From assembly GCA_021791295.1 (NCBI GenBank), contig JAJYWW010000112.1:1-19584 (forward strand): a stretch of DNA of 19,584 bases, written 5' to 3'. Within the stretch, counting starts at the first letter, position 1. Each line of letters begins with the position of its first letter. Below the pieces are notes generated by a model. It was not told the DNA's origin, searched no databases, and was given only the letters and a program-made list of their open reading frames with translations. The DNA comes from a bacterium. Lineage in GTDB: Bacteria; SZUA-79; Acidulodesulfobacterales; Acidulodesulfobacteraceae. Made by a program: the position numbers and the translations under genes. This document shows positions 1,141 to 19,584 of the stretch, one piece after another.

Positions 1141-2154
1141 CTACCCCCACACCGCGTTCACCGCTTTTTTTAGCGTGTCCGGAACTAAGTGGGCGTATCT
1201 CATAGTCATCTGGGGAGTCCTGTGTCCCAGTAGCTCCCCGGTAATATAAAGAGATGTTCCGGCCATAACCATCTTCGAAGCGAACACATGCCTTAAATCG
1301 TGGATCCTTAAATCTTTTAATCCGGCATTTTTACAGGCCGTCTTAAAAGAACGACTAAAATCAACGATTTTAGTCCCATTTATTTCAAACACATATAAAC
1401 TATCCTGTTTTTTATTTATCCCGGCCAGAATTGCTTTTAATGCGTCCGAAATCGGGATGCGCCGGTCGAACTTCGTTTTGGTTCCTTTTATGGCGATAAT
1501 GCCGTTTTGTAGATCCACATTATCCCATTTTAAATTTAAGGCTTCGCCCTTCCGGCAGCCGGTATAAATAAGGAACGAAATTAAATCCCTGGTAAGTTTA
1601 TTTGAGGCGCCGGAAATGAGCTTTCGGATATCCGAATCGGATAAAGTTTTTAGCCTGGACAGCTCGTTTAATTTTTTAATGCCGGCGCAGGGGTTCTTAT
1701 CTATATAGCTTCTCCGAACAGCAAAGTTTAAAAGGTTCGATAAAACGGCGAGCTCTATATTGGCCGTCCGGAAAGAGACGTCCTGCTCCCTTTTTCCCGA
1801 GTTCGAAGATTGGGCTAATATTTCCTTTTTTCTTTTTACCAGGTATTTTTCTACCAGGACGAAATCTATCCCGTCGACCGGCACGTCGCCGAAAAACTCA
1901 AAAACATGTTTTAACGCATTTATTTTTCGCTCGAGCGTCCCAGCGGCCAGAAGGGAGCTTGAAGAGGACATATACTCACCCCAACACTCTTTTAGTCCCG
2001 GAGACTTCCTTCCTGCCCTGGCCGGTGCCGCCGATTTTATAATTTGCTCGATAACGGCCGCGGTATTTTCATCGGTGGTCCCGCAGGACCCATGGTAGCG
2101 GATTCCGTTAATTTCAAAAGAATAGGCATAGTTCTTCCCTGTTTTAATTAGCAT
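1141..2154 (-). CDS. Tyrosine recombinase / phage-type integrase (copy 1)
   Basis: A 337-residue site-specific recombinase that would cut and rejoin attachment sites through a covalent 3'-phosphotyrosine. It has a short N-terminal arm-binding-like region, a SAM-like core-binding domain at about 55-155 and a catalytic domain at about 165-330. The catalytic set is complete: Arg201 (TGCRKGEAL), a beta-hairpin Lys near 226-228, His285 and Arg288 (HDLRH), His311 (LLGHR) and the nucleophile Tyr320 (MRYAHL). The start has a good ribosome site (AAAGGAGAG upstream on the minus strand). It lies downstream of a close paralogue on the same strand, and the catalytic halves are clearly similar at DNA level. 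Both copies look intact. Confidence 0.93.
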   Translation of the reverse strand: MLIKTGKNYAYSFEINGIRYHGSCGTTDENTAAVIEQIIKSAAPARAGRKSPGLKECWGEYMSSSSSLLAAGTLERKINALKHVFEFFGDVPVDGIDFVLVEKYLVKRKKEILAQSSNSGKREQDVSFRTANIELAVLSNLLNFAVRRSYIDKNPCAGIKKLNELSRLKTLSDSDIRKLISGASNKLTRDLISFLIYTGCRKGEALNLKWDNVDLQNGIIAIKGTKTKFDRRIPISDALKAILAGINKKQDSLYVFEINGTKIVDFSRSFKTACKNAGLKDLRIHDLRHVFASKMVMAGTSLYITGELLGHRTPQMTMRYAHLVPDTLKKAVNAVWG

Positions 2155-2307
2155 AATCTTCTCTCCTTTGTGTTTATAGGATTAAGGAGTAATAAGATAT
2201 TTTAGTTATATATTTTAAAAGCCGGTGGGATTATATCCATTTCGATATTGCTTGTCAATAGTTACGCAATTTTTTTTAAAAAAATAATAGGAAGGTTCCG
2301 GAGGGAA

Positions 2308-2326
2308 TTTTACAAGACCTGTAAAA
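2308..2326. repeat. 7-bp inverted repeat between the two integrase genes
   Basis: TTTTACA and TGTAAAA are separated by five bases in the 225-bp gap between the tandem integrases. It could be a weak terminator for the upstream copy or an operator for the downstream copy. A 14-bp palindrome (ATTAACCGGTTAAT, 2371-2384) overlaps the stop codon of the upstream gene. Confidence 0.3.
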
Positions 2327-2379
2327 TCCGTCCCGCAATGCCAGTAAAATAAAAATAGAATCTTTTAAAAATTAACCGG

Positions 2380-3528
2380 TTAATCAAAGTGCCGTTTTTT
2401 TAAACGGAGGGTAGAATCTTTCTTTTTCTCATACTCATTTATAATTTCCAGCGCTCTTTCATATTCCTTCCACTTTATATCGTCTATATCTCCGCCGAAA
2501 GACTTGTCTATTTCCCTTTTTAATTCTCCAGGCTTTAAGTGTGCATACCTCTGGGTCATAGATGGTGTCCTATGTCCCAATAATATCCCGGTCTTATATA
2601 ACGACGTGCCGTTCATAACGAGCTTCGAAGCGAAGACGTGCCGTAAATCGTGTATATGTAAATCTTTCAGTCCCGCATTTTTACACGCAGTTTTAAAAGA
2701 ACGCTTAAAATTGCCTAATTTAGCCCCGTTTCGTTCAAAGACATATAAACTATCATAAACCCTCTCTATCCCATCCAAAATTGAGCGTAGCGCGTCCGAA
2801 ATCGGGATATACCTATCATACTTTGTTTTAGTTCCCTTAATAGCTATTACACCGTTCTGTAGGTCTATGTCGTCCCATTTTAAATTTAAGGCCTCGCCTT
2901 TCCGGCAGCCGGTAAATACCAGGAATGAAATTAGATCCTTAGTTAATTTATTCGTGGCGCCAGCGATTAGTTTTTGGATATCGGAATCGGATAAAGTTTT
3001 TAGCCGGGACAGCTCATTGAGCTTTTTTATTTCGGAAGCAGGGTTTTTTTCGAGGTAACCGCGGTCTATACAAAAATTAAAAAAGTTGTAAAGGGTCTCT
3101 GTCTCGATATTTATAGTCCTAAACGATATCTCTTGCTCTCTTTTGCCGACGTTTTTCGGACTACTTAATACTTCTAATTTGCGTTGTAACTGATAAGTTT
3201 TAATATGTTCGATATTTATATCTGAGATATCTCTATCTCTAAAAAATAATAAAAAATGTTTGGCGGCGTTATCTCTTACTTCTATTGTTTTTTTTGAGGT
3301 ATTTAGATTTTTAAGATACTCATAAAAAATATCTTCAAACGGTAAGCTTTTTTTAATTAAACTTTTTAGCCCTGCCCTTGCTCTGGCGACATCGGTTTGT
3401 AAAGCATTAGCTATCTTTTCAGCATCCTTTTTATCTTTGGTCCTGCAAGAACCCTGGTAATGTTTGCCTTCTATGCATATATGGTAATACCATATATCGC
3501 TTCCTTTTTTTTGATAAATACTGGCCAT
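2380..3528 (-). CDS. Tyrosine recombinase / phage-type integrase (copy 2)
   Basis: A 382-residue recombinase closest to the attachment site. The frame is open for 29 more codons upstream, but I place the start at the ATG at 3528. There the sequence MASIYQKKGS aligns with the N-terminus of copy 1, a GAGAGAGG sits just upstream, and the extra codons fall in an AT-rich palindrome. Catalytic residues in this numbering are Arg209, the beta-hairpin Lys near 234-236, His293/Arg296 (HDLRH), His319 and Tyr328. It differs from copy 1 by a longer, charged C-terminal tail of about 50 residues (KEYERALEIINEYEKKK and on). Being adjacent to the tRNA fragment, it is the likelier active integrase for this element. 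Confidence 0.93.
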   Translation of the reverse strand: MASIYQKKGSDIWYYHICIEGKHYQGSCRTKDKKDAEKIANALQTDVARARAGLKSLIKKSLPFEDIFYEYLKNLNTSKKTIEVRDNAAKHFLLFFRDRDISDINIEHIKTYQLQRKLEVLSSPKNVGKREQEISFRTINIETETLYNFFNFCIDRGYLEKNPASEIKKLNELSRLKTLSDSDIQKLIAGATNKLTKDLISFLVFTGCRKGEALNLKWDDIDLQNGVIAIKGTKTKYDRYIPISDALRSILDGIERVYDSLYVFERNGAKLGNFKRSFKTACKNAGLKDLHIHDLRHVFASKLVMNGTSLYKTGILLGHRTPSMTQRYAHLKPGELKREIDKSFGGDIDDIKWKEYERALEIINEYEKKKDSTLRLKKRHFD

Positions 3529-3547
3529 ATCCTCTCTCGCTAAAATA

Positions 3548-3608
3548 GTAGCATATAAGTAGCAAATATATTGCATATTATATATATATAATATATAATA
3601 TGCAATAT
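3548..3608. promoter_or_regulatory. 11-bp repeats and AT palindrome upstream of integrase copy 2
   Basis: Three degenerate 11-bp units lie in tandem: GTAGCATATAA (3548-3558), GTAGCAAATAT (3559-3569) and ATTGCATATTA (3570-3580). A 16-bp perfect inverted repeat has arms at 3568-3583 and 3593-3608. The site lies between the integrase start and the tRNA fragment, where integrase arm sites, excisionase sites and the integrase promoter are normally found. The 11-bp period puts repeats on one face of the helix. Confidence 0.45.
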
Positions 3609-3666
3609 TTAGCATTTTAATAAACCGTTATTTTAGCGGGCTTTAATGTGGATAATATAATATATA

Positions 3667-3718
3667 CACCTGCATGGGGTGCAGGGGGTCGCAGGTTCAA
3701 ATCCTGTCGTCCCGACCA
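3667..3718 (+). other. attR: 3' fragment of tRNA-Pro(GGG)
   Basis: This is the 3' part of a tRNA gene. The anticodon stem pairs CCTGC (3669-3673) with GCAGG (3681-3685) around loop ATGGGGT with anticodon GGG. It is followed by a variable region, an intact T arm (GCAGG-TTCAAAT-CCTGT), the 3' acceptor strand CGTCCCG, A73 and encoded CCA (3716-3718). The D arm and 5' acceptor strand are absent: the bases to the left are AT-rich and do not pair. It closely resembles the 3' half of the intact tRNA-Pro(UGG) about 160 bp away but differs at several positions, so it is not a copy of that gene. It is best read as the attachment-site duplicate left by integration. Confidence 0.8.
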
Positions 3719-3874
3719 CTTTTATATTTAGTGGTTTTCCGGTTTTTATTTTCTGTTATGATCCAAGCATTCTTGCTATTGTTTAGAAATCTCTTTCTGG
3801 TGCTTCAATAAACTAATTTTTTATTTAAAAGCAGTTTTATTTAATGGTTGGATTTATTTTATAAGGATTGTAAA
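3719..3874. other. Intergenic spacer between tRNA fragment and tRNA-Pro
   Basis: AT-rich sequence of 156 bp. I see no gene, terminator or convincing repeat in it. Confidence 0.5.
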
Positions 3875-4021: not shown

Positions 4022-4915
4022 TTAATTTTTTGAGCTTTTGCTCATTAACCAATATACTATTCCGAGCACTAAAACAAGAAAACCGAGAATTGCAACTTCA
4101 GTGGATTTTTGAGGGGCAAGGGAAAAAATCAATATTTTTCTTAGTAATGCTGCCATTGCAAGGCCTATAAAGGCGCTTAAGGCAAATTTATGCCCCTGAA
4201 GCTTTTTGACCTCTTCTTCCAGCAGCTCCCTGATTGCCCATACAATCAGCATAGCTCCTAAAATATCTATAACCGTAGTTTCAAAGGAGCCGCCCATAAA
4301 AGCAAAATTATAGATTTCAAATACAAATAAGAGAAAAACCATAATAGTTGCAATAATAAGCGATATTACCAACGCAAGATCTAATATATAAGAAAATTTT
4401 GAACTAAATCTAATTATTTTTGTCTCAAATTTTGTAGTCGCAATGTAAAATTTTCCTTCGCTTATATAAGAGCTGATAATAATATCCAGATTAATGTCGA
4501 TAATTTTATTTACAGATACTATGAGTTCGTCTCTTTTGCCAGAACTAGGAAAATTTTTAAGAATAATCCCGTGTATAAAATTCCTTATATAATTCATCGT
4601 GGCGCTTACATAATGGGAGGGTAGCTTTATTTCGGCGTGGACCTCCCCTATCCGTTTTAATTTTCGCAAATATTCATTGTTATATGTTCCGGAAAAAAGT
4701 CCCATAAACCAAAATTTAAGTTTTTCCTGATGCCTATTTCTAATTTCTTCGTTAGGCAGAAATTTGCTGAAGTCTTCAAAATTGGCAATAAAAGAATAAG
4801 TGCCGGAAATAAAATCGTTTGCGTTAGAACCCATTAAACCGCTTAACTGCATTAAATTGGAAGCGTCGTTGTCGGTGAAAGAATATATTAGCTTTATTTT
4901 ATCAAGTGTTTCCAT
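4022..4915 (-). CDS. Protoglobin domain fused to PsiE-like membrane domain
   Basis: A 297-residue protein. Residues 1-155 look like the globin domain of globin-coupled sensors (protoglobin). The segment IGEVHAEIKLPSHYVSATMN contains the expected proximal heme-ligand His93 followed by the family's Pro-x-x-Tyr pattern. Residues about 175-292 have four hydrophobic segments with the PsiE-family (phosphate-starvation-inducible E) pattern ELLEEEVKKLQGHKFALSAF. The likely role is sensing O2, NO or sulfide-linked redox state at the inner membrane and passing the signal into the membrane domain. It diverges from the SQR-like gene with a 135-bp gap, and an AT-rich shared regulatory region is likely. 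The output of PsiE domains is unknown, so the function is inference. The domain calls are pattern-based. Confidence 0.75.
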   Translation of the reverse strand: METLDKIKLIYSFTDNDASNLMQLSGLMGSNANDFISGTYSFIANFEDFSKFLPNEEIRNRHQEKLKFWFMGLFSGTYNNEYLRKLKRIGEVHAEIKLPSHYVSATMNYIRNFIHGIILKNFPSSGKRDELIVSVNKIIDINLDIIISSYISEGKFYIATTKFETKIIRFSSKFSYILDLALVISLIIATIMVFLLFVFEIYNFAFMGGSFETTVIDILGAMLIVWAIRELLEEEVKKLQGHKFALSAFIGLAMAALLRKILIFSLAPQKSTEVAILGFLVLVLGIVYWLMSKSSKN

Positions 4916-6768: not shown

Positions 6769-6814
6769 AAAATAAAAGCGTCTAATATTTATAAATATTA
6801 GACGCTTTTATTTT
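6769..6814. terminator. 46-bp perfect palindrome, bidirectional terminator
   Basis: Two exact 23-base arms meet at 6791/6792. The core stem AAAGCGTCTAATA / TATTAGACGCTTT is flanked by an A-rich stretch on one side and TTTTATTTT on the other. It therefore works as a rho-independent terminator in both directions, for the SQR operon on the plus strand and for sodB on the minus strand. Confidence 0.85.
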
Positions 6815-7601: not shown

Positions 7602-7646
7602 TGGTGAGCCGCGCGGGAGTCGAACCCACGACCACCTGATTAAAAG
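7602..7646 (-). other. att site: 3' fragment of tRNA-Lys(UUU)
   Basis: On the minus strand, bases 7646 to 7602 give the anticodon loop CTTTTAA (anticodon TTT), stem strand TCAGG, variable TGGTC, T arm GTGGG-TTCGACT-CCCGC, acceptor strand GCGGCTC, A73 and CCA. The 5' stem partner (CCTGA would be expected) is replaced by TTTCC, and no D arm or 5' acceptor strand exists. Homology therefore stops exactly at the anticodon loop, a usual crossover point for tyrosine integrases. The orientation puts the inserted element to the right. Confidence 0.8.
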
Positions 7647-7765
7647 GGAAATTCAAGCAAATCAATAAACCGACTTTCCGCCTGCATTTATAGTAATTAT
7701 AAAGTTTTCCTCAATCCCGCCTATCCCGTATAATGCCGTTAAATTATGCCGATTTTTTTATAAAC

Positions 7766-7787: not shown

Positions 7788-8333
7788 TTACCGCCTGAAC
7801 TTTCTCTTAATTTCAGGTTTAATCTCCGGTTTATTTTGCGGATCTTGGGTGAAAGAGTCCGGCTTAGGGGATTCGGAGTTTTTTAAATTCGTGGATGTCG
7901 CCTCCTGTTTGTTTTCTATTTCTTGCTTATTTGTGAACTTCAAAGTCATTTTATTAATTTCGGTTACGAATTCTTCGGCTTTTTTAATAGATGACTTAAC
8001 CCCTTCTTTATTAAATTTAATTAAATCTCTGTAATCTCCTATTTGTCTCTGTTGAAAAGCGTTTTCGAGGATCTTGGTATAATCTTTATCCACCAATCCT
8101 TTATGCACAAATTCCTTATTAAATTCCCCTTTTACGTGGCCGTGGTCTGAATAATCAATGTCCTTTGTAAGCAATAAGGCTTTAATAGAATAAAAACAAG
8201 CATAATAATTTCTATTGACCGCTAAATTCAAGTGGTTAGATTCGTAAGCCATTTTAGCCTCATCAATTGCCTCAATAGATCTCTCGATTCTATATTTTAT
8301 TAAAGCCTGTTTATCCCCTTCTCGTAGAGTCAT
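7788..8333 (-). CDS. HEPN-domain protein (UPF0332-like), partner of the MNT protein
   Basis: A 181-residue protein. Residues about 8-130 carry the UPF0332-type HEPN pattern: LAVNRNYYACFYSIKALLL at 37-55, then an FVHKG segment and QQRQIGDYRDLIKF. Its ATG overlaps the stop of the upstream nucleotidyltransferase gene by four bases, the standard layout of MNT/HEPN pairs. Many such HEPN proteins are RNases with an R-x4-6-H motif. Here the matching place reads RQIGDY, with Tyr instead of His, so RNase activity is doubtful. About 45 C-terminal residues are low-complexity and rich in Lys, Pro, Glu and Asn, unusual for the family. It may act as a toxin or as a regulatory or RNA-binding subunit. Confidence 0.8.
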   Translation of the reverse strand: MTLREGDKQALIKYRIERSIEAIDEAKMAYESNHLNLAVNRNYYACFYSIKALLLTKDIDYSDHGHVKGEFNKEFVHKGLVDKDYTKILENAFQQRQIGDYRDLIKFNKEGVKSSIKKAEEFVTEINKMTLKFTNKQEIENKQEATSTNLKNSESPKPDSFTQDPQNKPEIKPEIKRKFRR

Positions 8334-8773
8334 AATTCGATTCCCTCCCGTTTAATATTTTGATACCAGGGCTCAATTCCGGCAACGCGGGTATTTAAAT
8401 AACTCTTATACTCTATTTGCCAATCAATAAAAATATCGTATTTTAATTCAATGTCAACTACAATGCCTAATATTTTTTCATTAATATCTTTGCTTACCCG
8501 CATAAAATACCGATTTTTGAGTTCTTCAAATGATATATCCTTATCTATTTTGTAATCGTCATTAATTACTATAAGCAGGTCTATATCCGATTCCTCGTTA
8601 TAATCCCCCCTTGCTTTAGAGCCGTAAAGGATTAATTTTGCCCCAGGGTATTTTTCCGTGACCTTTTCCTTTAATTCCGTTAAAGCCGTCCTCTCGTCAT
8701 CCGTAAGATAACTTAAATATCCGGCTTTTTCCGCAAGATTATTATTGACAACGGTATTTATTATCCTTTCCAT
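8330..8773 (-). CDS. MNT-type nucleotidyltransferase (antitoxin-like)
   Basis: A 147-residue minimal nucleotidyltransferase. The family signature is complete at residues 51-69: GSKARGDYNEESDIDLLIV, with Gly-Ser plus Asp63 and Asp65 as metal ligands and Asp107 or Asp113 as the probable third. In characterised MNT/HEPN pairs this protein neutralises the toxin by transferring AMP to it. It is the first gene of the pair and overlaps the HEPN gene by ATGA. No ribosome site precedes the ATG, and an extended -10 (TGTTATAAT, minus strand) lies only 10 bases upstream, so the transcript may be leaderless. Confidence 0.9.
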   Translation of the reverse strand: MERIINTVVNNNLAEKAGYLSYLTDDERTALTELKEKVTEKYPGAKLILYGSKARGDYNEESDIDLLIVINDDYKIDKDISFEELKNRYFMRVSKDINEKILGIVVDIELKYDIFIDWQIEYKSYLNTRVAGIEPWYQNIKREGIEL

Positions 8774-9605: not shown

Positions 9606-9908
9606 TCATATGCGCCGGTTTGATAATAATATCAGAGCGCCTGCGACAGTCGTTTTCTCCGGGGGATTAACCGCGGGAGAATGCCAAAAACTAACTTCGT
9701 TTTTATGTGCTTCCTCTAATTCAGATCCGGACGGCGGCTCGGCTCTCTCTTCATGCCGTCCGTACCATTCCTCGAGGTTTAAATCAAAAACAAGGGTTGT
9801 TTTCTTAGATGCTATAACGTCGTCATAGCCGCCTTCGTAGCCAGGTATGACGACCATTAAATCCTCCGGGTATTTTTTAAGCTCTTCGATTAGTTCCTTA
9901 ACGGTCAT
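9606..9908 (-). CDS. Small hypothetical protein of phage/plasmid type
   Basis: A 100-residue protein beginning TVKELIEELKKYPEDLMVVIPGYEGGYDD. This opening resembles small hypothetical proteins often found in phages and plasmids (a Leu-rich helix, then 'pEDLxVvxxgYEGGyDD'). The start overlaps the end of the ORF6N gene by 11 bases, so the two are probably translated together. It ends within 70 bp of the phosphoesterase start. No catalytic motif is apparent and the function is unknown. Confidence 0.7.
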   Translation of the reverse strand: MTVKELIEELKKYPEDLMVVIPGYEGGYDDVIASKKTTLVFDLNLEEWYGRHEERAEPPSGSELEEAHKNEVSFWHSPAVNPPEKTTVAGALILLSNRRI

Positions 9909-10458
9909 ATTTATCGCCCTTTTTCTTTTTCTTTATCGTATGCTTGACTTTTAGAAGCGCAAGATTTAATTCGAGAGTCGTTTCGCTGCTGGTGGTCTCT
10001 AAGGCGCCGTCGAGGATGTCTCCCAGGACGTTAGCGGCCTTCTCCATTATTGTTTTCTGCTCGGCTTTGTCGGCTGTCGGCAGCCTCGACATGCTCCTGG
10101 ACAGGTCCCTTATTTTGGCATACGTTTCTATAATGTCCAGAGTTGTTTTTACCGCCTTAGGGCTTTTGATTATGGTTGTGAGCATATAGAGGCCTTTTTC
10201 GGTAAAAGCCTTTAAGTCGGCGCTCGAATGTTTTAATTTATTAAACCGGTGGAAATTTTCCACCAGTTCATTTTTTTCCGTGGCCGTAAGTTTTATGATA
10301 TAGCTTTCTGGAAATTTGGCCGGATTATTCTTAACCGCCTTATTAACATCTCTTGTTTCAATGCTGTATAGCGCGGCCACGTCGCTATCTATAATTACCT
10401 TCTCTCCCCGGATATCGATTATCTTGTCTTGGACGTTTTCGAGTTTTACTATTTGCAT
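9898..10458 (-). CDS. ORF6N-domain DNA-binding protein
   Basis: A 186-residue protein. Residues about 5-95 match the ORF6N domain common in phages and mobile elements: a segment with KVIIDSDVAALYSIETRDVNKAVKNN, then FPESYIIKLTATEKNEL and an FTEKGLYML motif. The rest is helical and ends in a Lys-rich tail (HTIKKKKKGDK). Related KilA-N/ORF6N/Rha proteins are thought to bind DNA and regulate phage genes. It heads a minus-strand run with the small hypothetical gene, just after the palindromic end of the 79-bp inverted repeat, which may insulate it from transcription coming from upstream. No clear ribosome site. Confidence 0.85.
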   Translation of the reverse strand: MQIVKLENVQDKIIDIRGEKVIIDSDVAALYSIETRDVNKAVKNNPAKFPESYIIKLTATEKNELVENFHRFNKLKHSSADLKAFTEKGLYMLTTIIKSPKAVKTTLDIIETYAKIRDLSRSMSRLPTADKAEQKTIMEKAANVLGDILDGALETTSSETTLELNLALLKVKHTIKKKKKGDKYDR

Positions 10459-11653: not shown

Positions 11654-11863
11654 ATGAATAATAAATATATAGGCATAAAGGAGATGGCAGAAATTTTAAG
11701 TAGTAGTAAAGGAAGGTTGTATTCGGCTGTTAAAAAAAACGAAATACCGCACTTAAAATTTGGGAGGAGGTATTTGTTTTCTGTGGAGGAAGTTGAAAAG
11801 TATTTACAAGAGTCAACCATCCACGCTCTGACGAGCGGGGTTAGAGTTTCGCCAAACCGTTGA
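11654..11863 (+). CDS. Excisionase/MerR-type small HTH protein
   Basis: A 69-residue DNA-binding protein with the HTH_17/excisionase pattern: GIKEMAEILSSSKGRLYSAVKKNEIPHLKFGRRYLFSVEEVEKYL, that is, a helix-turn-helix, the I-P-x-x-K-x-G-R-R wing and a final helix. The start has a good site (AGAGGAAATT-ATG). It is the first gene of the replication operon and lies opposite the XRE gene. Proteins of this type act as excisionases or as plasmid copy or transfer regulators. The same fold recurs at 18824 next to the integrase, so this copy more likely regulates replication than excision. Confidence 0.82.
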   Translation: MNNKYIGIKEMAEILSSSKGRLYSAVKKNEIPHLKFGRRYLFSVEEVEKYLQESTIHALTSGVRVSPNR

Positions 11864-11918: not shown

Positions 11919-13142
11919 TTGGTGTATCACAGTGAGACACTTAAAAAAATGAAAAAAATAAAAGAAAACATAACCATTAAAACAGTCGAACAGGCACTAC
12001 TTTCGAGCATTTTAATTGACAACCGCAACTTGCAAGAAGCTAATAGTATAGGGTTTAACGATTTCTATGATTCCCGGCATCGAGTAATATTCGCTAAAAT
12101 GCAAGAATTATATAATGCTGGCAAGCCTATCGACCCCATAACGCTTGAAATGCCGGATGAATATGATTATTTGTTGGATTTGTTAGATATGCCGGCCGGA
12201 CTCCTCAACGTTGAAGAATATGTGAGACAAATTTTAGAAAATTCCAACAAAAGAAGCCTAATATCTAAAATCGAAAATATTAGCTTAAGACAAGATAACG
12301 CTAACTACAACGACCTTAAACTCGATGTTATTGAATTTGCGAATAACCTTAAGGAAAAAGATACAACAACAAAGTTTAATTTTTTAAAACCTCAAGAAAT
12401 TAAATCCGAAAAAGCTTCTTTCTTGCTTGAAGATTTTATGCCACTTCCTATCGGTGCAGAAACGATAATATCGTCAAAAGGCGGCAGCGGCAAGTCGGCT
12501 CTGGCTTTACAGTTAGCACTCAGGGCGAGCGCAACGGGGATTAAAACGCTGGCGTGGTTATCGGAAGATCCGATAACTCTCACAAAACACCGTCTCGAAA
12601 AAATCTCGAAGATGACGGAAATAAATATTAACGATAACCTTATGTTATGCGGCGATACGCCGTTTAATATTTTAGTGAAAAATAATAAAAACATCAAGGT
12701 TAATCCGGTTTTTTACGATTTTATGGCAGCATGTAAAAACTTTAAAATAGTGATCATAGACCCACTCATCGCGTTTTATGGCGCTGACGAGAATAGTAAT
12801 TATGAGGCGCGATATTTTATGGAGCTATTTTCAAAATGGGCTAAAGAAGAAAACAAAGCAATTATAATTATACACCATCAAACTAAATATATAGACGTTT
12901 CTATTGCGCGGGGAGCGGGGGCGTTTATAGACGCCGTCCGGGCGCATTATAGCGCCGAAAAAGACAAAGACGATAACAGATACGTTAACGTTAGAATAGA
13001 AAAAGATAACTGGGGGATTGGAAGTATTTTTAAGAAAGAAAAACAAATTCAACTATGGGCTGAAAAACTACAAGGGAAAGAAGAATATTATAAAGAAAAT
13101 AAAGAAAAAAATATAAATATTTATGAAAAATACGGATTTTAA
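11919..13142 (+). CDS. Plasmid replicative helicase: DnaB-N-like plus RepA/RecA-like ATPase
   Basis: A 407-residue protein if it starts at the TTG at 11919; an in-frame GTG (11922) and ATG (11949) are alternatives. AAAGGG at 11906-11911 favours the TTG or GTG. Residues about 22-110 resemble the DnaB N-terminal domain (VEQALLSSILIDNRNLQEA). Residues about 165-370 are a RecA-fold ATPase of the plasmid RepA type: Walker A SSKGGSGKSA (Lys192), Walker B KIVIIDPL (Asp281) and a sensor segment IIIIHHQTK. It would unwind DNA at the nearby origin. The next gene overlaps its end by 20 bases. Fusing a DnaB-N-like domain to a RepA-type motor is uncommon; RSF1010 RepA lacks it. Confidence 0.88.
   Translation: MVYHSETLKKMKKIKENITIKTVEQALLSSILIDNRNLQEANSIGFNDFYDSRHRVIFAKMQELYNAGKPIDPITLEMPDEYDYLLDLLDMPAGLLNVEEYVRQILENSNKRSLISKIENISLRQDNANYNDLKLDVIEFANNLKEKDTTTKFNFLKPQEIKSEKASFLLEDFMPLPIGAETIISSKGGSGKSALALQLALRASATGIKTLAWLSEDPITLTKHRLEKISKMTEININDNLMLCGDTPFNILVKNNKNIKVNPVFYDFMAACKNFKIVIIDPLIAFYGADENSNYEARYFMELFSKWAKEENKAIIIIHHQTKYIDVSIARGAGAFIDAVRAHYSAEKDKDDNRYVNVRIEKDNWGIGSIFKKEKQIQLWAEKLQGKEEYYKENKEKNINIYEKYGF
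11922..11940. promoter_or_regulatory. 19-bp near-palindrome at the helicase start (copy A)
   Basis: GTGTATCAC-A-GTGAGACAC has one mismatch between 9-base arms. It begins at the possible GTG start and just downstream of AAAGGG. A perfect version lies at 17768-17786 in the same setting, after AAAGGA and TTG. It could be an operator, or an mRNA hairpin controlling helicase translation. Confidence 0.6.
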
Positions 13143-13971
13143 AATATCCAACACCACCGTCTCAATCGTTAGGAGCGGGATATTCGCTCCCACCCTTAAG
13201 GCCACAAAGACCGATAGGGATATTATTTTCGAAAATAACTGGGGAAAACTAAAAATATTAAAAAAATATAACCAACTAACACAGACGCATATTAATATTT
13301 TAGACAGTATTTTTGCGAATGCTGCGGAAATCAGAAAATTTGAGACTGGGGAAATAGGAATAAAATTCGGAATAAATAAGGTCCTAAAAACTCTCGGTCA
13401 GACGGGAACAAATTATGAATGGCTCCAAAGAAAATTAGACGATCTAATTTCAACTGTGGTCGAAATAGAAACGAAAAATAACGTAACACACGAGGGAATC
13501 CTTCATTACGCCCGCTGGTCGAAAACTCCAAACCCCAACGCCTTAAAGAAAAACACTTCAGGATTAAAATATTATAAAAAAGGGAGTTGCGGGTATTATT
13601 ATTCGATCGTCTTTAATACGGAATTTACGAGGTTTTTTGATATAGAGATTAATTTAAATTATCTAAAAATATTACCTGAAATATTAAATTTAAAATCCGG
13701 CGTTCTTCAGGCATTTGTCCGGTTCTGCATTAGCCATAACGAACTAAATATGCAATTATCTGAAATCTTAGGAAATATAAGGGTATTGGAGGGGGCGACA
13801 GACAGGCGCCGGCGTCAAATCATAAAAGAAGTCAAAGACAATGCCGCTCTGCTTTACGAAAAATTTAAAATTAAAATTGATAAAAATAATATCGTTAAAT
13901 ATAAACACAAAAACGCGACGGGCATTTATTTTTTAGCACCTGGAAAAGATAAAAAAAAGGAAACCATTTAA
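13123..13971 (+). CDS. Plasmid replication initiator (RepC/TrfA-like)
   Basis: A 282-residue protein, close to the length of IncQ RepC. Residues about 45-150 include QLTQTHINILDSIFANA, EIGIKFGINKVLKTLGQTGTNYEWLQRKLDDLISTVVEIE, a winged-helix-type pattern seen in RepC/TrfA-type plasmid initiators. A second similar block follows at about 185-265. The assignment is from pattern and context: it overlaps the helicase gene by 20 bases and its last codons lie inside the first of four iterons, which it should bind to open the origin and load the helicase. No ribosome site is visible, so translation is probably coupled to the helicase gene. Confidence 0.8.
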   Translation: MKNTDFKISNTTVSIVRSGIFAPTLKATKTDRDIIFENNWGKLKILKKYNQLTQTHINILDSIFANAAEIRKFETGEIGIKFGINKVLKTLGQTGTNYEWLQRKLDDLISTVVEIETKNNVTHEGILHYARWSKTPNPNALKKNTSGLKYYKKGSCGYYYSIVFNTEFTRFFDIEINLNYLKILPEILNLKSGVLQAFVRFCISHNELNMQLSEILGNIRVLEGATDRRRRQIIKEVKDNAALLYEKFKIKIDKNNIVKYKHKNATGIYFLAPGKDKKKETI

Positions 13972-14051
13972 TACGGATGCGGAAACCATTTAATACGGTA
14001 AATAAAAAAAAGGAAACCATTTAATACGGATGCGGAAACCATTTAATACGT
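13959..14051 (+). repeat. Origin of replication: four 18-bp iterons
   Basis: GGAAACCATTTAATACGG occurs at 13959-13976, 13981-13998, 14012-14029 and 14034-14051 (the last has T for the final G). Start-to-start spacing is 22, 31 and 22 bp, so they form two pairs joined by ATGC. The whole pair with its A8 leader is a 49-bp direct repeat (13949-13997 and 14002-14050). 22 bp is two helical turns, putting paired sites on one face. The first iteron contains the initiator stop codon. This is a typical iteron origin and implies that copy number is set by initiator binding. Confidence 0.92.
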
Positions 14052-14056
14052 TCTCA

Positions 14057-14080
14057 AGAGTATCTCAAGAGAGATACTCT
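14057..14080. other. 10-bp stem-loop next to the iterons
   Basis: AGAGTATCTC and GAGATACTCT are perfect arms around the loop AAGA. The motif TCAAGAG occurs three times here (14054, 14065, 14082). It is part of the origin region and may be a host-factor or regulatory site. Confidence 0.6.
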
Positions 14081-14087
14081 ATCAAGA

Positions 14088-14127
14088 GAGAAAGAAAAAA
14101 TATTTTTAGGAATATTTTTTCTTTCTC
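14088..14127. other. 17-bp perfect AT-rich stem-loop (origin or terminator)
   Basis: Perfect 17-base arms (14088-14104 and 14111-14127) enclose TTTAGG. The arms are almost pure purine on one side and pyrimidine on the other. It could end the helicase/initiator transcript, form a cruciform or unwinding element, or act as a single-strand initiation site. The AT content suits the last two. Confidence 0.65.
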
Positions 14128-14162
14128 CTAAATAAAAAAATAAAAACATTAGGACGGTTAAA

Positions 14163-14425: not shown

Positions 14426-15511
14426 ATGTTTAAAAAAATCATCAGCGTTATTGTAATTATTTCGTTCACGACGTTTTATACGTTAGCCCTCGTAAATAGT
14501 AAAAATGCCTTTGCTTTTGTCGTTCCTTCGATTAGCGGCGTAGTTAACGCTGCTGAAGCTATGGCTGATGCAGGGGATTCCTTGGTTGCTGCCGGTAAAG
14601 TGGTCGGTCTGGCAATTCCACCCGGAGGACCCTTTGGGTTATCGACGAGTATCGGGCAATGGTTACAGGGAAAATCGACGGGTTTACTTAATACAGGCAA
14701 ATTTATGACTTCCATGGCAAAACTTCAAGTGGAACTCTCTAAAGTCCAGTCATCCATTAACGCCGCTACTACCGCCGTTTCCGATGTTTACAACGCCGAA
14801 GGAGACATAACCGCCGCGCAGAACTCTCTGCAGGGTAACGGTATTATTATGACTAACTGCCAGGGCGGGTCAGGCATAATGGGTTCTATCGCTTCCGAAA
14901 ACTGCACGGAAGAAACGATTAACTCCAACATCGAAGGCCTTCAGGGGACTTATTCGACCTTTGGCGGCCAGGCAGGAGTTTCCGGCAACGGCATATCTTC
15001 CGCCCTTGCAGGAAACAGTCCAAACCAGGCGGCACTTTTAAACGGGGTAAACAACTTTTCGAACGTGTCTGAAAACGGCCTCGGCGGGTCGGTCTCTATA
15101 TCGCCTACGAGCAATTTATGTCAGGACGAACTTGCCGCGGGCATGGTTACTAACGCTTCCCAATGCACGGAAAGTTACCAAAGAGCAGTAGACTCCGAAC
15201 TAAACAAAAATATGCTCATAAACGGAACGGAAGGCATAGCGCAGGGCAACGCCGCAATAGTATCCGGTAGCGGTTTTTCGAATGTGATATCCGGCGTTAA
15301 AGGCTCTTACGATTTACAGCAGCTCGAGCTTTTAAAAATACTTGCCGAGGAAAACGCACAGCAGCTTAAATCTACCGGCGCTTTGACGAGGCAAATAGCG
15401 ATAGCTAATCAGGCAAAAGCCGCGAAGAAAATTAACGATGCAAAAACGCCGATTATAGGCAAACCTAACGACCCGATAAAGGAAATGCAGGCTAACGGCT
15501 GGTATTACTGA
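14426..15511 (+). CDS. TrbJ/VirB5-like secreted type IV secretion protein
   Basis: A 361-residue exported protein with a signal peptide (hydrophobic core about 5-23, cleavage after AFA near 30). The mature part is rich in Ala, Gly, Asn and Ser and has four cysteines (TNCQG, ENCTE, NLCQD, SQCTE), which could pair in the periplasm. The C-terminal helix DLQQLELLKILAEENAQQLKS...LTRQIAIANQAKA resembles the C-terminal helix of TrbJ/VirB5 pilus-tip proteins. The strong site AAAGGAGG is six bases before the ATG. It lies 20 bp before a TrbL-like gene, the usual neighbour order. The family call is moderate because the middle is low-complexity. Confidence 0.65.
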   Translation: MFKKIISVIVIISFTTFYTLALVNSKNAFAFVVPSISGVVNAAEAMADAGDSLVAAGKVVGLAIPPGGPFGLSTSIGQWLQGKSTGLLNTGKFMTSMAKLQVELSKVQSSINAATTAVSDVYNAEGDITAAQNSLQGNGIIMTNCQGGSGIMGSIASENCTEETINSNIEGLQGTYSTFGGQAGVSGNGISSALAGNSPNQAALLNGVNNFSNVSENGLGGSVSISPTSNLCQDELAAGMVTNASQCTESYQRAVDSELNKNMLINGTEGIAQGNAAIVSGSGFSNVISGVKGSYDLQQLELLKILAEENAQQLKSTGALTRQIAIANQAKAAKKINDAKTPIIGKPNDPIKEMQANGWYY

Positions 15512-15531
15512 AATTTTATTTATTAAAAAAT

Positions 15532-16659
15532 ATGAAACTTACAACTTTAATTTTATTAACCGCCGGATTTATTTGTTTCGGTATGATTAAAAGTTCTTTC
15601 GCCGGAACAAAAACTTGTCCAAGCGGGTATTCTATGGGTTCTAACGGGTACTGCCATAGCACTACCGATAGCGCAGGCAAATGTCCTCCTGGAGGCCATT
15701 GGTCAGGTGGAAACACTTGTACCGCAGAACCGATCACTACGCCGCCTAAAACATCCTCTACGGCCAAGCCGAACACCGCATCCACTCCGAACGCTAAAAC
15801 CGCTCAAGCAATGACGATGCCGAAGATGTTTGGTATCCCTAAAAGTTTAAAGACGTTTGACGTGGAAACGATTCCGGAAGATATCCTCGATAATTCCAAC
15901 TTAACCGGTTGGGTCCAAAACATTGCGTATATGCTGATAATATTTGGATTTATTTATGATATGTATATGAACCTTTATAGGTTTTCTATCGGGGACGACG
16001 GAAAAAATAAAAGCTACTGGCAATTATTTTTTCGCTTAATTTTTGCATTTACCGCCGTTTACATATGGTCTAAAGGAATATTTTTCGAACAGTATTTAAA
16101 CTTTATACAAAACACGCAAGACTATATCTGGACGACTATGGCTAATAAATCCAACGTTTACAAGATAACCGCGGATGTTAGACATATGATTGGGCAGTTT
16201 GGTTCGGGTCAAAAAGGAAACGGGTTTGAGTGGTATAACCCCGCCACGTGGGGGAACTTAGTTAATATTGCCGGACAGGCTGTTTTAGAGTTCATTTTTG
16301 CGACCATAGTATTTTTGGTTTATATAATTTACATCGTCGTATATTTTTTAATTTACCTATTCCAGGTTCTAATACTTGGCCTGTTATATGCGATATTCCC
16401 CCTTGCGATAGGCTTATGGGTAGGAGAATATGCTGAAAGCGTCAGTCCTTTACAATCGTGGTTTAAATGGTTTATCGAAGTTTCGACTTGGGGAGTATTT
16501 ATAGGTCTCGAAAACGTAATTTTTAACACTATCGTCGGGAATTTTATCGCCGATTCCGTTTTAGGCCTGAGGGGGGGCGGCGTTAAGTTTAGTACTCGCG
16601 TTGGGTCTGATTTTAGCCATGATTCTCCTGCTTCTCGCCGGCCCCTTCCTAATCCATAA
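15532..16659 (+). CDS. TrbL/VirB6-like channel protein, N-terminal part (frameshifted)
   Basis: This frame gives 375 residues, but only the first 347 or so look native. A signal peptide (1-24) is followed by an exported segment with four cysteines (29, 41, 51, 63) and a Thr/Pro-rich linker. Then come membrane segments at about 130-150, 165-180, 250-305 and 325-345, including the TrbL/VirB6-like run YLFQVLILGLLYAIFPLAIGLW. At a G7 run (16571-16577) the frame passes into hydrophilic residues and a stop, while the +1 frame continues with hydrophobic TrbL-like sequence. One G fewer would join them into a protein of roughly 465 residues. It would be the polytopic inner-membrane channel of a type IV secretion system. 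Confidence 0.72.
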   Translation: MKLTTLILLTAGFICFGMIKSSFAGTKTCPSGYSMGSNGYCHSTTDSAGKCPPGGHWSGGNTCTAEPITTPPKTSSTAKPNTASTPNAKTAQAMTMPKMFGIPKSLKTFDVETIPEDILDNSNLTGWVQNIAYMLIIFGFIYDMYMNLYRFSIGDDGKNKSYWQLFFRLIFAFTAVYIWSKGIFFEQYLNFIQNTQDYIWTTMANKSNVYKITADVRHMIGQFGSGQKGNGFEWYNPATWGNLVNIAGQAVLEFIFATIVFLVYIIYIVVYFLIYLFQVLILGLLYAIFPLAIGLWVGEYAESVSPLQSWFKWFIEVSTWGVFIGLENVIFNTIVGNFIADSVLGLRGGGVKFSTRVGSDFSHDSPASRRPLPNP

Positions 16660-16933
16660 AATATTCGGTATGACGTCCGGTCACGGACATATAGGGAATG
16701 CGGCGAGTAAGGCTAAAAGTTTTAAAGATACTTCCGACTCGAAACAAAGTCAAGAAAAAATCAAAGAAGGAGTTAAGGCGATAGCGACAGGCGGCGCTTC
16801 CGTTCCGGCTGATATGGCTAAGGAAGGCGCAAAACAGGCGGTAAAAACTGCGCAAGATACCATAAAGGAGCAAGGCGGCAACGCAGCCGGCGGCATCGCC
16901 CCGGGAGCTTCGACCCGTTTAGACGGAAAATAA
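16601..16933 (+). CDS. C-terminal part of the TrbL-like protein (shifted frame)
   Basis: In this frame the sequence is open from the stop at 16568 and begins GGAALSLVLALGLILAMILLLLAGPF, a strong membrane helix. It goes on to GHGHIGNAASKAK and a hydrophilic Ala/Lys/Gly-rich tail. That order, a last helix and then a soluble tail, is the normal end of TrbL. The TTG at 16601 is only a formal start; no ribosome site supports it. Either the G7 run is a sequencing or assembly error, the gene is broken, or slippage at the run makes the full protein. Confidence 0.65.
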   Translation: MGLILAMILLLLAGPFLIHKIFGMTSGHGHIGNAASKAKSFKDTSDSKQSQEKIKEGVKAIATGGASVPADMAKEGAKQAVKTAQDTIKEQGGNAAGGIAPGASTRLDGK

Positions 16934-16956
16934 TAAAAATGATTTTTGGAGGCGGT

Positions 16957-17301
16957 ATGAAAGAAAGAATTGATTTTTTATCAGTATCGAAAGAAATTGC
17001 GGATAGAGTTGAACACTATTATAACTGGTGTTTTAGGGCGGTTTCCATCTTTGCGATGCTCTCGTTTGTAAGTTTTTTTGGAATGGCGATTTTTTATTAT
17101 ATCGTTCGGTTTTTACCACTTGCGATGGCATTTCTGACTACTCTTGTAATTACTACGGCATTTTTTATGGCGACGACTTTGGTAACTATTATTTTATTTT
17201 TAGCCGGATTAATTTTAGGGGTAAAAAAATATATTCATGATTTTAAGGATAGAGGAAAAAATTTATTGTTCCGGATTAAACAGATTTTTAAAATACCGTA
17301 A
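16957..17301 (+). CDS. Small two- or three-helix membrane protein
   Basis: A 114-residue protein. I start at the ATG at 16957, with TGGAGG at 16947-16952, rather than the in-frame ATG at 16939. After a charged 30-residue N-terminus there are hydrophobic segments at about 28-52 and 55-90 and a basic C-terminal tail (KDRGKNLLFRIKQIFKIP). It follows the TrbL-like gene by 23 bp and may be an accessory of the same membrane complex. Its 3' end and terminator are duplicated in inverted form at 10491-10610. Family not recognised. Confidence 0.7.
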   Translation: MKERIDFLSVSKEIADRVEHYYNWCFRAVSIFAMLSFVSFFGMAIFYYIVRFLPLAMAFLTTLVITTAFFMATTLVTIILFLAGLILGVKKYIHDFKDRGKNLLFRIKQIFKIP

Positions 17302-18823: not shown

Positions 18824-19039
18824 ATGAAATTGGTCGGCGTGGAAAAAATAGCGGAGATACTCGATATAAATGAAAATACGATATACGACTGGACTGCTAC
18901 CCGTAAAATCCCGCATTACAAAGTCGGACGACTCGTTAAATTCGACATCGATGCCGTTATGGACTGGCTTGCAACTTGCGAGGTTAAACCATATAATAAA
19001 GGAACAGGCGGAAGGTCCCATAAAGGAGGTGGCAAATAA
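18824..19039 (+). CDS. Excisionase-type HTH protein
   Basis: A 71-residue protein of the excisionase/HTH_17 type: VEKIAEILDINENTIYDWTATRKIPHYKVGRLVKFDIDAVMDWL, with the helix-turn-helix, the I-P-x-x-K-V-G-R wing and the closing Asp-x-x-x-W-L helix. Its tail is Gly/Lys-rich (GTGGRSHKGGGK). Its stop overlaps the integrase start (ATAATG), so the two are translationally coupled. It would bend DNA at the attachment site and favour excision. Directional control of an integrase is its best-supported role because of this coupling. Confidence 0.87.
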   Translation: MKLVGVEKIAEILDINENTIYDWTATRKIPHYKVGRLVKFDIDAVMDWLATCEVKPYNKGTGGRSHKGGGK

Positions 19040-19584
19040 TGGGACTTTTCAAAAGAAAAGGCAGCCCTTATTATTTTATGAAATTCCAGGCTAACGGTAT
19101 CCGGATTTACGAGTCCACAAAGACGGCCAATAAGAAACTTGCCGAAGAAATATATTTAAACCGCCGGTCGGAAATTATTTACGGCATAGAACCGGAAATA
19201 AAAAAAGAACCGGTAAGGGATATTAGTTTTAACGAGCTTGCGGATAAGTATTTGGAATTTATTTCCGGCAGGCTTAAATCGGCATACGATACAGGGTTAT
19301 TTGTTAAAACGCTCGCCATGAGGTTTAAAAATAAGCCGTTATCGGATTTTACAATGCAGGATTTGGAACTTTTTCAATCGGACTGGATTAAGGACGGGTT
19401 TTCGATAGCTTATGCCAACAGGCTTACGGCAACATTAAAAAGAATGTTTGCAAAAGCGCTTGATTGGGATTTAATAACCGAAGACGTCTTAAAGCGGGTC
19501 CGGAAAGCGAAACAGCTTAAAGGCGAAAAAACAAGATTAAGGTATTTATCGGAAGAAGAAGCCGAAAGGCTAATATTTAATTGC
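19039..19584 (+). CDS. Tyrosine recombinase / integrase, N-terminal part (runs off the edge)
   Basis: The first 182 codons of an integrase, cut by the window edge. AAAGGAGG at 19022-19029, nine bases before the ATG, supports the start. The N-terminus (GLFKRKGSPYYFMKFQANGIRIYESTKT) is the arm-binding type with a short beta-sheet. Residues about 60-155 form the SAM-like core-binding domain (ISFNELADKYLEFISGRLKS to LTATLKRMFAKALDWDLI). The last residues RLRYLSEEEAERLI open the catalytic domain; the catalytic residues lie beyond the window. With the overlapping excisionase gene it is the likely enzyme for integration at tRNA-Lys. Confidence 0.9.
   Translation, partial: MGLFKRKGSPYYFMKFQANGIRIYESTKTANKKLAEEIYLNRRSEIIYGIEPEIKKEPVRDISFNELADKYLEFISGRLKSAYDTGLFVKTLAMRFKNKPLSDFTMQDLELFQSDWIKDGFSIAYANRLTATLKRMFAKALDWDLITEDVLKRVRKAKQLKGEKTRLRYLSEEEAERLIFNC

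Follow-up and report, generated by a model that had tools for sequence, protein, structure and literature searches.

The 19,584-nt contig JAJYWW010000112.1 (assembly GCA_021791295.1) of an uncultured bacterium of the Acidulodesulfobacteraceae, referred to in its whole length as the window, carries an element integrated at a tRNA-Lys gene. This element has a complete iteron replicon (11949-14127), which most likely copies it after excision by means of its own helicase and of host DnaG docked on a DnaB-type N-terminal domain. The replicon consists of a helicase gene, an overlapping initiator gene, four iterons, three short CAAGAG repeats and a long hairpin. In the proposed mechanism, the initiator would bind the four iterons and open the AT-rich stretch of CAAGAG repeats beside them; the RepA-type helicase that the element encodes would be loaded there in place of host DnaB, and its N-terminal domain would dock host DnaG for priming. 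The hairpin, when single-stranded, could then act as a fixed priming site for the second strand. DnaG docking is proposed because no primase gene was seen. Replicating integrative elements are already known; it is not obvious how priming would work in one that brings a helicase other than DnaB and has no visible primase gene.

The helicase gene (11949-13142, + strand) encodes a replicative helicase of 397 aa. The database copy begins at the ATG at 11949, and a TTG at 11919 is a possible alternative start. Pfam assigns a DnaB-N domain (PF00772, 1.6e-16) and AAA_25 (1.5e-13) to the product, with the DnaB N-terminal domain at about residues 13-97 and the RepA-type motor at about 164-356. A profile of 30 helicase homologs matches the Helicobacter pylori DnaB N-terminal domain (3gxv) at 8.8e-18 over positions 4-114 and RSF1010 RepA (1g8y) at 1.1e-15 over positions 164-356, so the preliminary description of this DNA was right to read a DnaB-N-like domain joined to a RepA-type motor. 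The DnaB C-terminal motor (PF03796) is not matched by the window helicase, and the AAA_25/RepA motor stands in its place. Family scans of the element genes within the window, which ends at 19584 with the element continuing beyond, found no primase domain, as the same description had noted. Of the loci with the helicase, 51 of the 66 in genomes and 20 of the 24 in viral contigs have DnaB-N, so its fusion to such a motor is widespread rather than rare. Among 49 loci with the initiator, 42 have DnaB-N plus motor, one has a long N-terminal part (L059) and four have the motor only (L050, L051, L097 and L048, the last truncated by the contig end); at L095 and L096 no helicase was seen on the stretch covered. 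Of 50,697 phage records, 24 had helicase matches, which among the 20 best covered at most 29% of the query.

The initiator gene (13123-13971, + strand) overlaps the end of the helicase gene by 20 bases and encodes a protein of 282 aa. The predicted structure has the twin winged-helix fold of Rep_3 (PF01051) initiators, and in structural alignments it matches RctB, RepE and pi at 8-14% identity. No named family in Pfam, PF01051 included, or in NCBIfam was assigned to the window protein, and PHROGs gave weak matches only; among the relatives scanned, L009 passes the PF01051 cut-off and L021 lies just below it. The gene had initially been called RepC/TrfA-like. The initiator part of that claim stands, through a predicted fold of the RctB/RepE/pi kind, and the specific relationship to RepC or TrfA is not supported; neither name occurs among the structural alignment rows shown for the window initiator or for a second type found in L002 (see below), which excludes neither. 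No window-type initiator was found in the phage records (E <= 0.01) or in the viral contigs searched.

Homologous initiators, mostly followed by iterons, are carried by circular Campylobacterota plasmids and by the Leptospirillum plasmid p49879.1. Because its homologs sit on circular plasmids, the window replicon is, judged by homology, a member of a plasmid-type replicon family. The initiator is a "hypothetical protein" in the plasmid records examined, and the family could be of use in typing plasmids from Campylobacterota and acid-mine bacteria. The same helicase-initiator block occurs in two Campylobacterota families, on Nitrosophilus labii pHRV44 (L092) and Campylobacter iguaniorum pCIG1485E (L093), in both cases among very similarly ordered F-type conjugation genes (TraU, EAL, TrbC). 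On Campylobacter vulpis pVULP (L100, 3092-4885), a 597-aa "AAA family ATPase" has a C-terminal part that is weakly initiator-like (E 0.2). It is possibly a helicase and initiator in one chain, and three further plasmids carry a similar protein.

Four 18-bp iterons (13959-14051, + strand) follow, the first of which lies across the initiator stop codon. Copies of GGAAACCATTTAATACGG start at 13959, 13981, 14012 and 14034; the last has one mismatch and the other three are identical. The spacings of 22, 31 and 22 bases correspond to about two and three helical turns, giving the direct repeats at helical spacing beside an initiator gene that characterize iteron replicons. Four copies compare with 0.06 expected, and none of 200 shuffles reached four. 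The overlapping initiator and the four iterons from the stop codon, as described from the letters, are confirmed. In L050, L097 and L098, the initiator homolog has no iterons by repeat count, and the helicases of L050 and L097 are motor-only.

Past the iterons, three CAAGAG repeats at 14055, 14066 and 14083 (14055-14088, + strand) are candidate repeats of a DNA unwinding element, and the first two fall inside a palindrome at 14057-14080. Such repeats were found 3' of 7 of the 16 initiator genes compared within the order of the relative L003, 'Candidatus Acididesulfobacter diazotrophicus' (window, L144, L139, L135, L137, L136 and L133, with L144 and L139 being near copies). They were not found at L140, L142 or L121, nor at L001-L005, which have other initiator types, and L138 has a match only within the gene end. 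When 30 genomes of the order were searched for the CAAGAG triplet, seven hits in seven genomes were returned, five of them directly 3' of an initiator, and the reversed control gave none. The remaining two (G008, contig C226, L146; G022, contig C88, L150) are distant from detected initiators and may reflect chance or other origins.

The long perfect hairpin at 14088-14127, with arms of 17-18 bp, is a candidate single-strand priming site or terminator. Folded as DNA, positions 14050-14140 reach -23.4 kcal/mol (z -6.7). Hairpins scoring at least 13 follow 11 of the 16 initiators, compared with 2 of 100 other open reading frame (ORF) ends in the same sequences, these two being one convergent hairpin counted twice; the best-scoring hairpin is positioned differently from that of the window in L133, L138 and L121, and differs from the choice by eye in L005 and L142. 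Within the order, the sequence of the hairpin varies while the pairing is kept, also beside different initiator types. In a wider set, 46 of 64 loci have a hairpin that beats all 8 shuffles. The best hairpin in Campylobacterota mostly lies at the gene end, ahead of the iterons, and the layout of the window is therefore not demonstrated there.

It is quite possible, if on the less probable side, that this hairpin does no more than end transcription of the rep operon, with the CAAGAG repeats acting as an accessory binding site. The hairpin does lie at the operon end, its 3' arm is T-rich, as are those of L144, L139 and L001-L004, and the scheme of the SGI1 oriV places a putative terminator stem-loop 3' of rep (PMC7433901, section 9). 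However, the stem does not run into a T-tract, with 2 T among the 10 bases after it, and the hairpin is absent from the list of a terminator scan, in contrast with a G+C-containing convergent hairpin at about 6769-6814 that ends in CGCTTTTATTTT. Some copies lack the T-rich arm (L135, L136), and the recurrence of the hairpin, altered in sequence, beside different initiator types of the order also argues against a mere terminator.

The reading of the DnaB-type domain as a dock for host primase draws on a natural exchange. In three metagenomic proteins (P0016, P0018 and P0025), the motor is kept and an N-terminal CHC2 zinc finger (PF01807) replaces DnaB-N; the scan of P0016 gave CHC2 at 3.8e-10, Toprim_2 at 0.0082 (below cut-off) and DnaG at 4.2e-12 (below the full-length cut-off). 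Motor identity is 87-89% with P0010, a protein that bears DnaB-N, and 74-77% with the window helicase. When 37 motors were placed in a tree, these three fell among those of DnaB-N proteins, nearest to P0010 and then to the window protein, with support of 100/98 and 98/93 for the two groupings; the tree is midpoint-rooted and has some long branches elsewhere, including the primase-fused L131. The first 385 residues of the three proteins are closest to L122 (81%, the alignment reaching residue 449), a protein with a different type of motor that matches DnaB_C weakly. Because the motors nest among DnaB-N proteins while the N-terminal residues resemble a protein with a different motor, these comparisons show a domain exchange at a sharp boundary. 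Within the 30 genomes, P0016 matches nine, by its motor only in four (G001-G004) and by its primase half in five (G006, G015, G017, G024, G025). The swap lends support to the earlier suggestion that DnaB-N might recruit the host primase.

We consider it unlikely that the replicon is real and DnaB-N instead helps to form the oligomer or to load the helicase, whether as a collar or by contacting the initiator, with priming by RNA polymerase or another host route. The DnaB N-terminal domain is also known to form the collar of the hexamer, and motor-only relatives accompany the same kind of initiator (L050, L051, L097). However, the part that replaces DnaB-N in the sister proteins is primase-like, with the CHC2 zinc finger and the weak TOPRIM and DnaG matches, so the N-terminal slot is argued to concern priming, and several different motors of the order carry either DnaB-N or a primase part. 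Near-identical motors with a DnaB docking domain or a primase-like part form a natural control; the sufficiency of DnaB-N for handing host primase to another motor is therefore directly testable.

Initiators and helicases are also exchanged among relatives. The genome loci whose helicases come closest to that of the window (L001-L005, 51-53% identity) have other initiators, of two types: L001, L003 and L004 share the first, L002 and L005 the second. Their iterons are spaced at 21 bp in L001, L003 and L005; L004 has two copies at 21 bp, a count not above shuffles, and L002 a looser set. The 21-bp iterons of L005 lie within the coding end of its initiator (2905-3747), so that the protein contains a repeated heptapeptide, ARMNTPT. 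Profiles of the window type compared with the L001 and L002 types gave E 0.0019-0.044 at probabilities of 1-14%, offering no safe sequence homology. A model of the L002 type (predicted local distance difference test score 87) matches RctB (14.2), RepE (13.3) and pi (13.0), and this initiator is thus predicted to have the fold of the window type while being unrelated to it in sequence.

With equal length of the longest contig taken as a proxy, a helicase of the family was on the same contig for 5 of 17 initiator homologs of the L002 type. For the window type the count was 1 of 8, the single case being the pair in the window. Among the 30 genomes, the helicase family is present in five (E <= 1e-40) and the initiator in 11. 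Window-type initiators that are 52-56% identical (L133, L135) stand after other helicases. The gene before the initiator encodes DnaB-N with a DnaB_C-like motor at L135, L142 and L140 (at L140 by profile), a primase-like part with AAA_25 at L131/L136, and a primase-like part with a weakly DnaB_C-like motor at L122/L144 and L123/L139. At L133, identical in sequence to L134, it has no Pfam match; an AAA_25 protein whose N-terminal part has no assignment lies near L138, L143 has a weak Toprim_3 match, and no helicase was found on the stretches examined at L137 and L141. L121 and L124 fit less well: at L121, DnaB-N with AAA_25 is followed by a gene that falls outside the window-type profile, and L124 has a primase-helicase with no window-type initiator detected. 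An alignment search of the viral contigs for the primase-helicase gave no match. The 24 viral contigs with the helicase family (L067-L090) all lack a window-type initiator, and a different initiator must therefore serve there.

From these patterns we tentatively suggest, rating the chance slightly below even, that borrowing the host primase and bringing one's own are two states of a single exchangeable N-terminal helicase domain. DnaB-N would then be a portable DnaG-docking module swapped for a CHC2-TOPRIM primase, the motor, the initiator with its iterons and the block of repeats and hairpin would recombine as cassettes, and the hairpin would be a second-strand priming site across several initiator families.

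The integrated state of the element, already claimed in the preliminary description, was confirmed at its left border and by its integration genes. At 7602-7647 (- strand) lies the 3' half of a tRNA gene, its 5' half absent and the element to its right, which we take for the left attachment site (att). It is identical at 34 of 46 positions to the att repeat of the L003 element, which is bounded by perfect 46-bp direct repeats of a tRNA-Lys 3' half (1798-1843 and 13497-13542). Rfam gave only a T-arm-like match of the tRNA/tmRNA clan here, and the assignment to tRNA-Lys is our reading of the anticodon loop. At the right, an excisionase gene (xis, 18824-19039, + strand; TIGR01764, 1.7e-10; 87% identity to that of the L001 element) precedes the start of a tyrosine integrase gene (int, 19039-19584, + strand), an open ORF that runs past the window end and is 63% identical to the L001 integrase over 185 columns. 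Xis, a partial int and an att fragment homologous to that of L003 are what site-specific integration calls for. With the tRNA 3' half matching the L003 repeat on one side and xis and int on the other, the element would extend from about 7602 to beyond 19584, placing the right att outside the window. Because a tRNA gene directly follows int in L001-L003, we estimate its length by analogy at 12-13 kb.

Several observations weigh against replication of the element by the proposed route. Motor-only helicases beside such initiators (L050, L051, L097) imply that DnaB-N is dispensable for the motor. Functional equivalence of the swapped parts is our own step from the exchange, and P0016, P0018 and P0025 are metagenomic and known from the proteins alone. 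Searches of PDB sequences with the initiator, one of them by profile, found none (matches at E 1e-4 in another of them were discarded as designed repeat proteins), and Foldseek of its model against the PDB gave no match at E <= 0.001, the top rows being unrelated. Five of the 49 scored initiator loci fall short of four repeats (L050, L097, L098, L008 on a short stretch, and L059 with three copies), and the helicase has no window-type initiator with it at any of the 24 viral loci, nor at 26 of the 66 genome loci. When up to one mismatch was allowed, the whole window had 11 DnaA-box matches compared with 4.4 expected, and none of them fell between 11.4 and 17.5 kb. The relaxase-like protein of L001, itself recognized by weak matches below cut-off (0.0053 in Pfam, 0.00048 in NCBIfam), has no match in the window, with the element lying partly beyond 19584. 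That the element is a decaying remnant, its replication genes retained by chance and no longer excising or replicating, might be read from this missing relaxase, and from the lack of any sign of a free form in an exact iteron-pair scan of viral contigs, but it is improbable, since the helicase, initiator, xis and visible int are all open frames, three of the four iterons are identical and the origin layout is intact.

The remaining genes of the element resemble those of its relatives. A HEPN and MNT nucleotidyltransferase pair of toxin-antitoxin or defence type (7788-8773, - strand; Pfam HEPN 6.9e-16, NTP_transf_2 1e-12) forms cargo near the left end, and the MNT gene is common to the L003 element. 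An element protein with an ORF6N domain, of the phage antirepressor type, is encoded at 9898-10458. Immediately 5' of the replication genes, a small HTH_17 or excisionase-like regulator (11654-11863, + strand; Pfam HTH_17 2.3e-11) is 32% identical to the L001 xis over 59 residues. Genes for secreted and multi-membrane proteins (14426-17301, + strand) can be called VirB5/VirB6-like from size and order only; they had no family match in family-library scans, and a similar gene layout is seen in L003 and L001. The L003 element has MNT/HEPN, a regulator, membrane genes for which the VirB naming is likewise inferred, a relaxase-like protein, helicase, initiator, iterons, xis and int.

Outside the element, the chromosome carries a protoglobin gene (4022-4915) with 75% identity to the one adjoining the L003 element, which makes it probable that the host belongs to the order of L003. 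Two tandem tyrosine integrases at the far left of the window adjoin a putative tRNA-Pro(GGG) 3' fragment (about 3671-3718, our own reading with weak Rfam matches), and the region 1141-3718 probably closes off another integrated element, distinct from this one and lying to the left. The preliminary description had implied a link between the integrases at 1141-3615 and the element, which is unlikely, because they are 26-31% identical to the integrases of related elements compared with 38-63% for the one at 19039, and because they neighbour another tRNA fragment.

In comparison with known systems, the listings and abstract openings from searches of open-licence PMC text, which leaves out most subscription papers, showed no paper on a plasmid helicase with DnaB-N and a RepA motor or on the window-type initiator family, and a literature search found none on p49879.1. 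This plasmid of Leptospirillum ferrooxidans has a homologous initiator (55 bits, 23.5% identity) and iterons that begin in the stop codon at spacings of 22/31/21, followed by repeats and a hairpin (score 9, not above the best shuffle); it differs in being a plasmid and in showing no helicase homolog on the 9.6-kb stretch examined. Compared with RepE, pi and RctB of the Rep_3 type, the window initiator has no PF01051 match and structural identities of 8-14%. With IncQ (RSF1010), the element shares a RepA-type motor of its own (1g8y, 1.1e-15) together with an initiator and iterons. The IncQ replicon has a RepB' primase, whereas none was found among the window element genes scanned, DnaB-N is fused to the motor, and the initiator, without a RepC sequence match, has a predicted fold of the RepE/pi/RctB kind. 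The origin-side hairpin recalls the IncQ ssi sites. Fusions of archaeo-eukaryotic-type primases with RepA or DnaB motors are known from mobile elements, as part of one paper describes (PMC5862659).

According to the sections of PMC7433901 drawn on here, SGI1 replicates after excision; next to its rep come four iterons of 17 bp, then a putative DnaA box and three copies of an 8-bp repeat in an AT-rich region, and SGI1 variants have swapped their replication initiator. The window element thus resembles SGI1-family islands in int/xis site-specific integration, in rep followed by four iterons, in an AT-rich region with three repeats and in initiator exchange (PMC7433901). A RepA_C domain sets SGI1 rep apart from the window initiator, and those sections speak of no helicase encoded by SGI1 itself (PMC7433901); the window element encodes a DnaB-N/RepA-type helicase with its initiator, and no DnaA box was seen nearby. 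With these differences, SGI1-like replicating islands are the nearest known kind.
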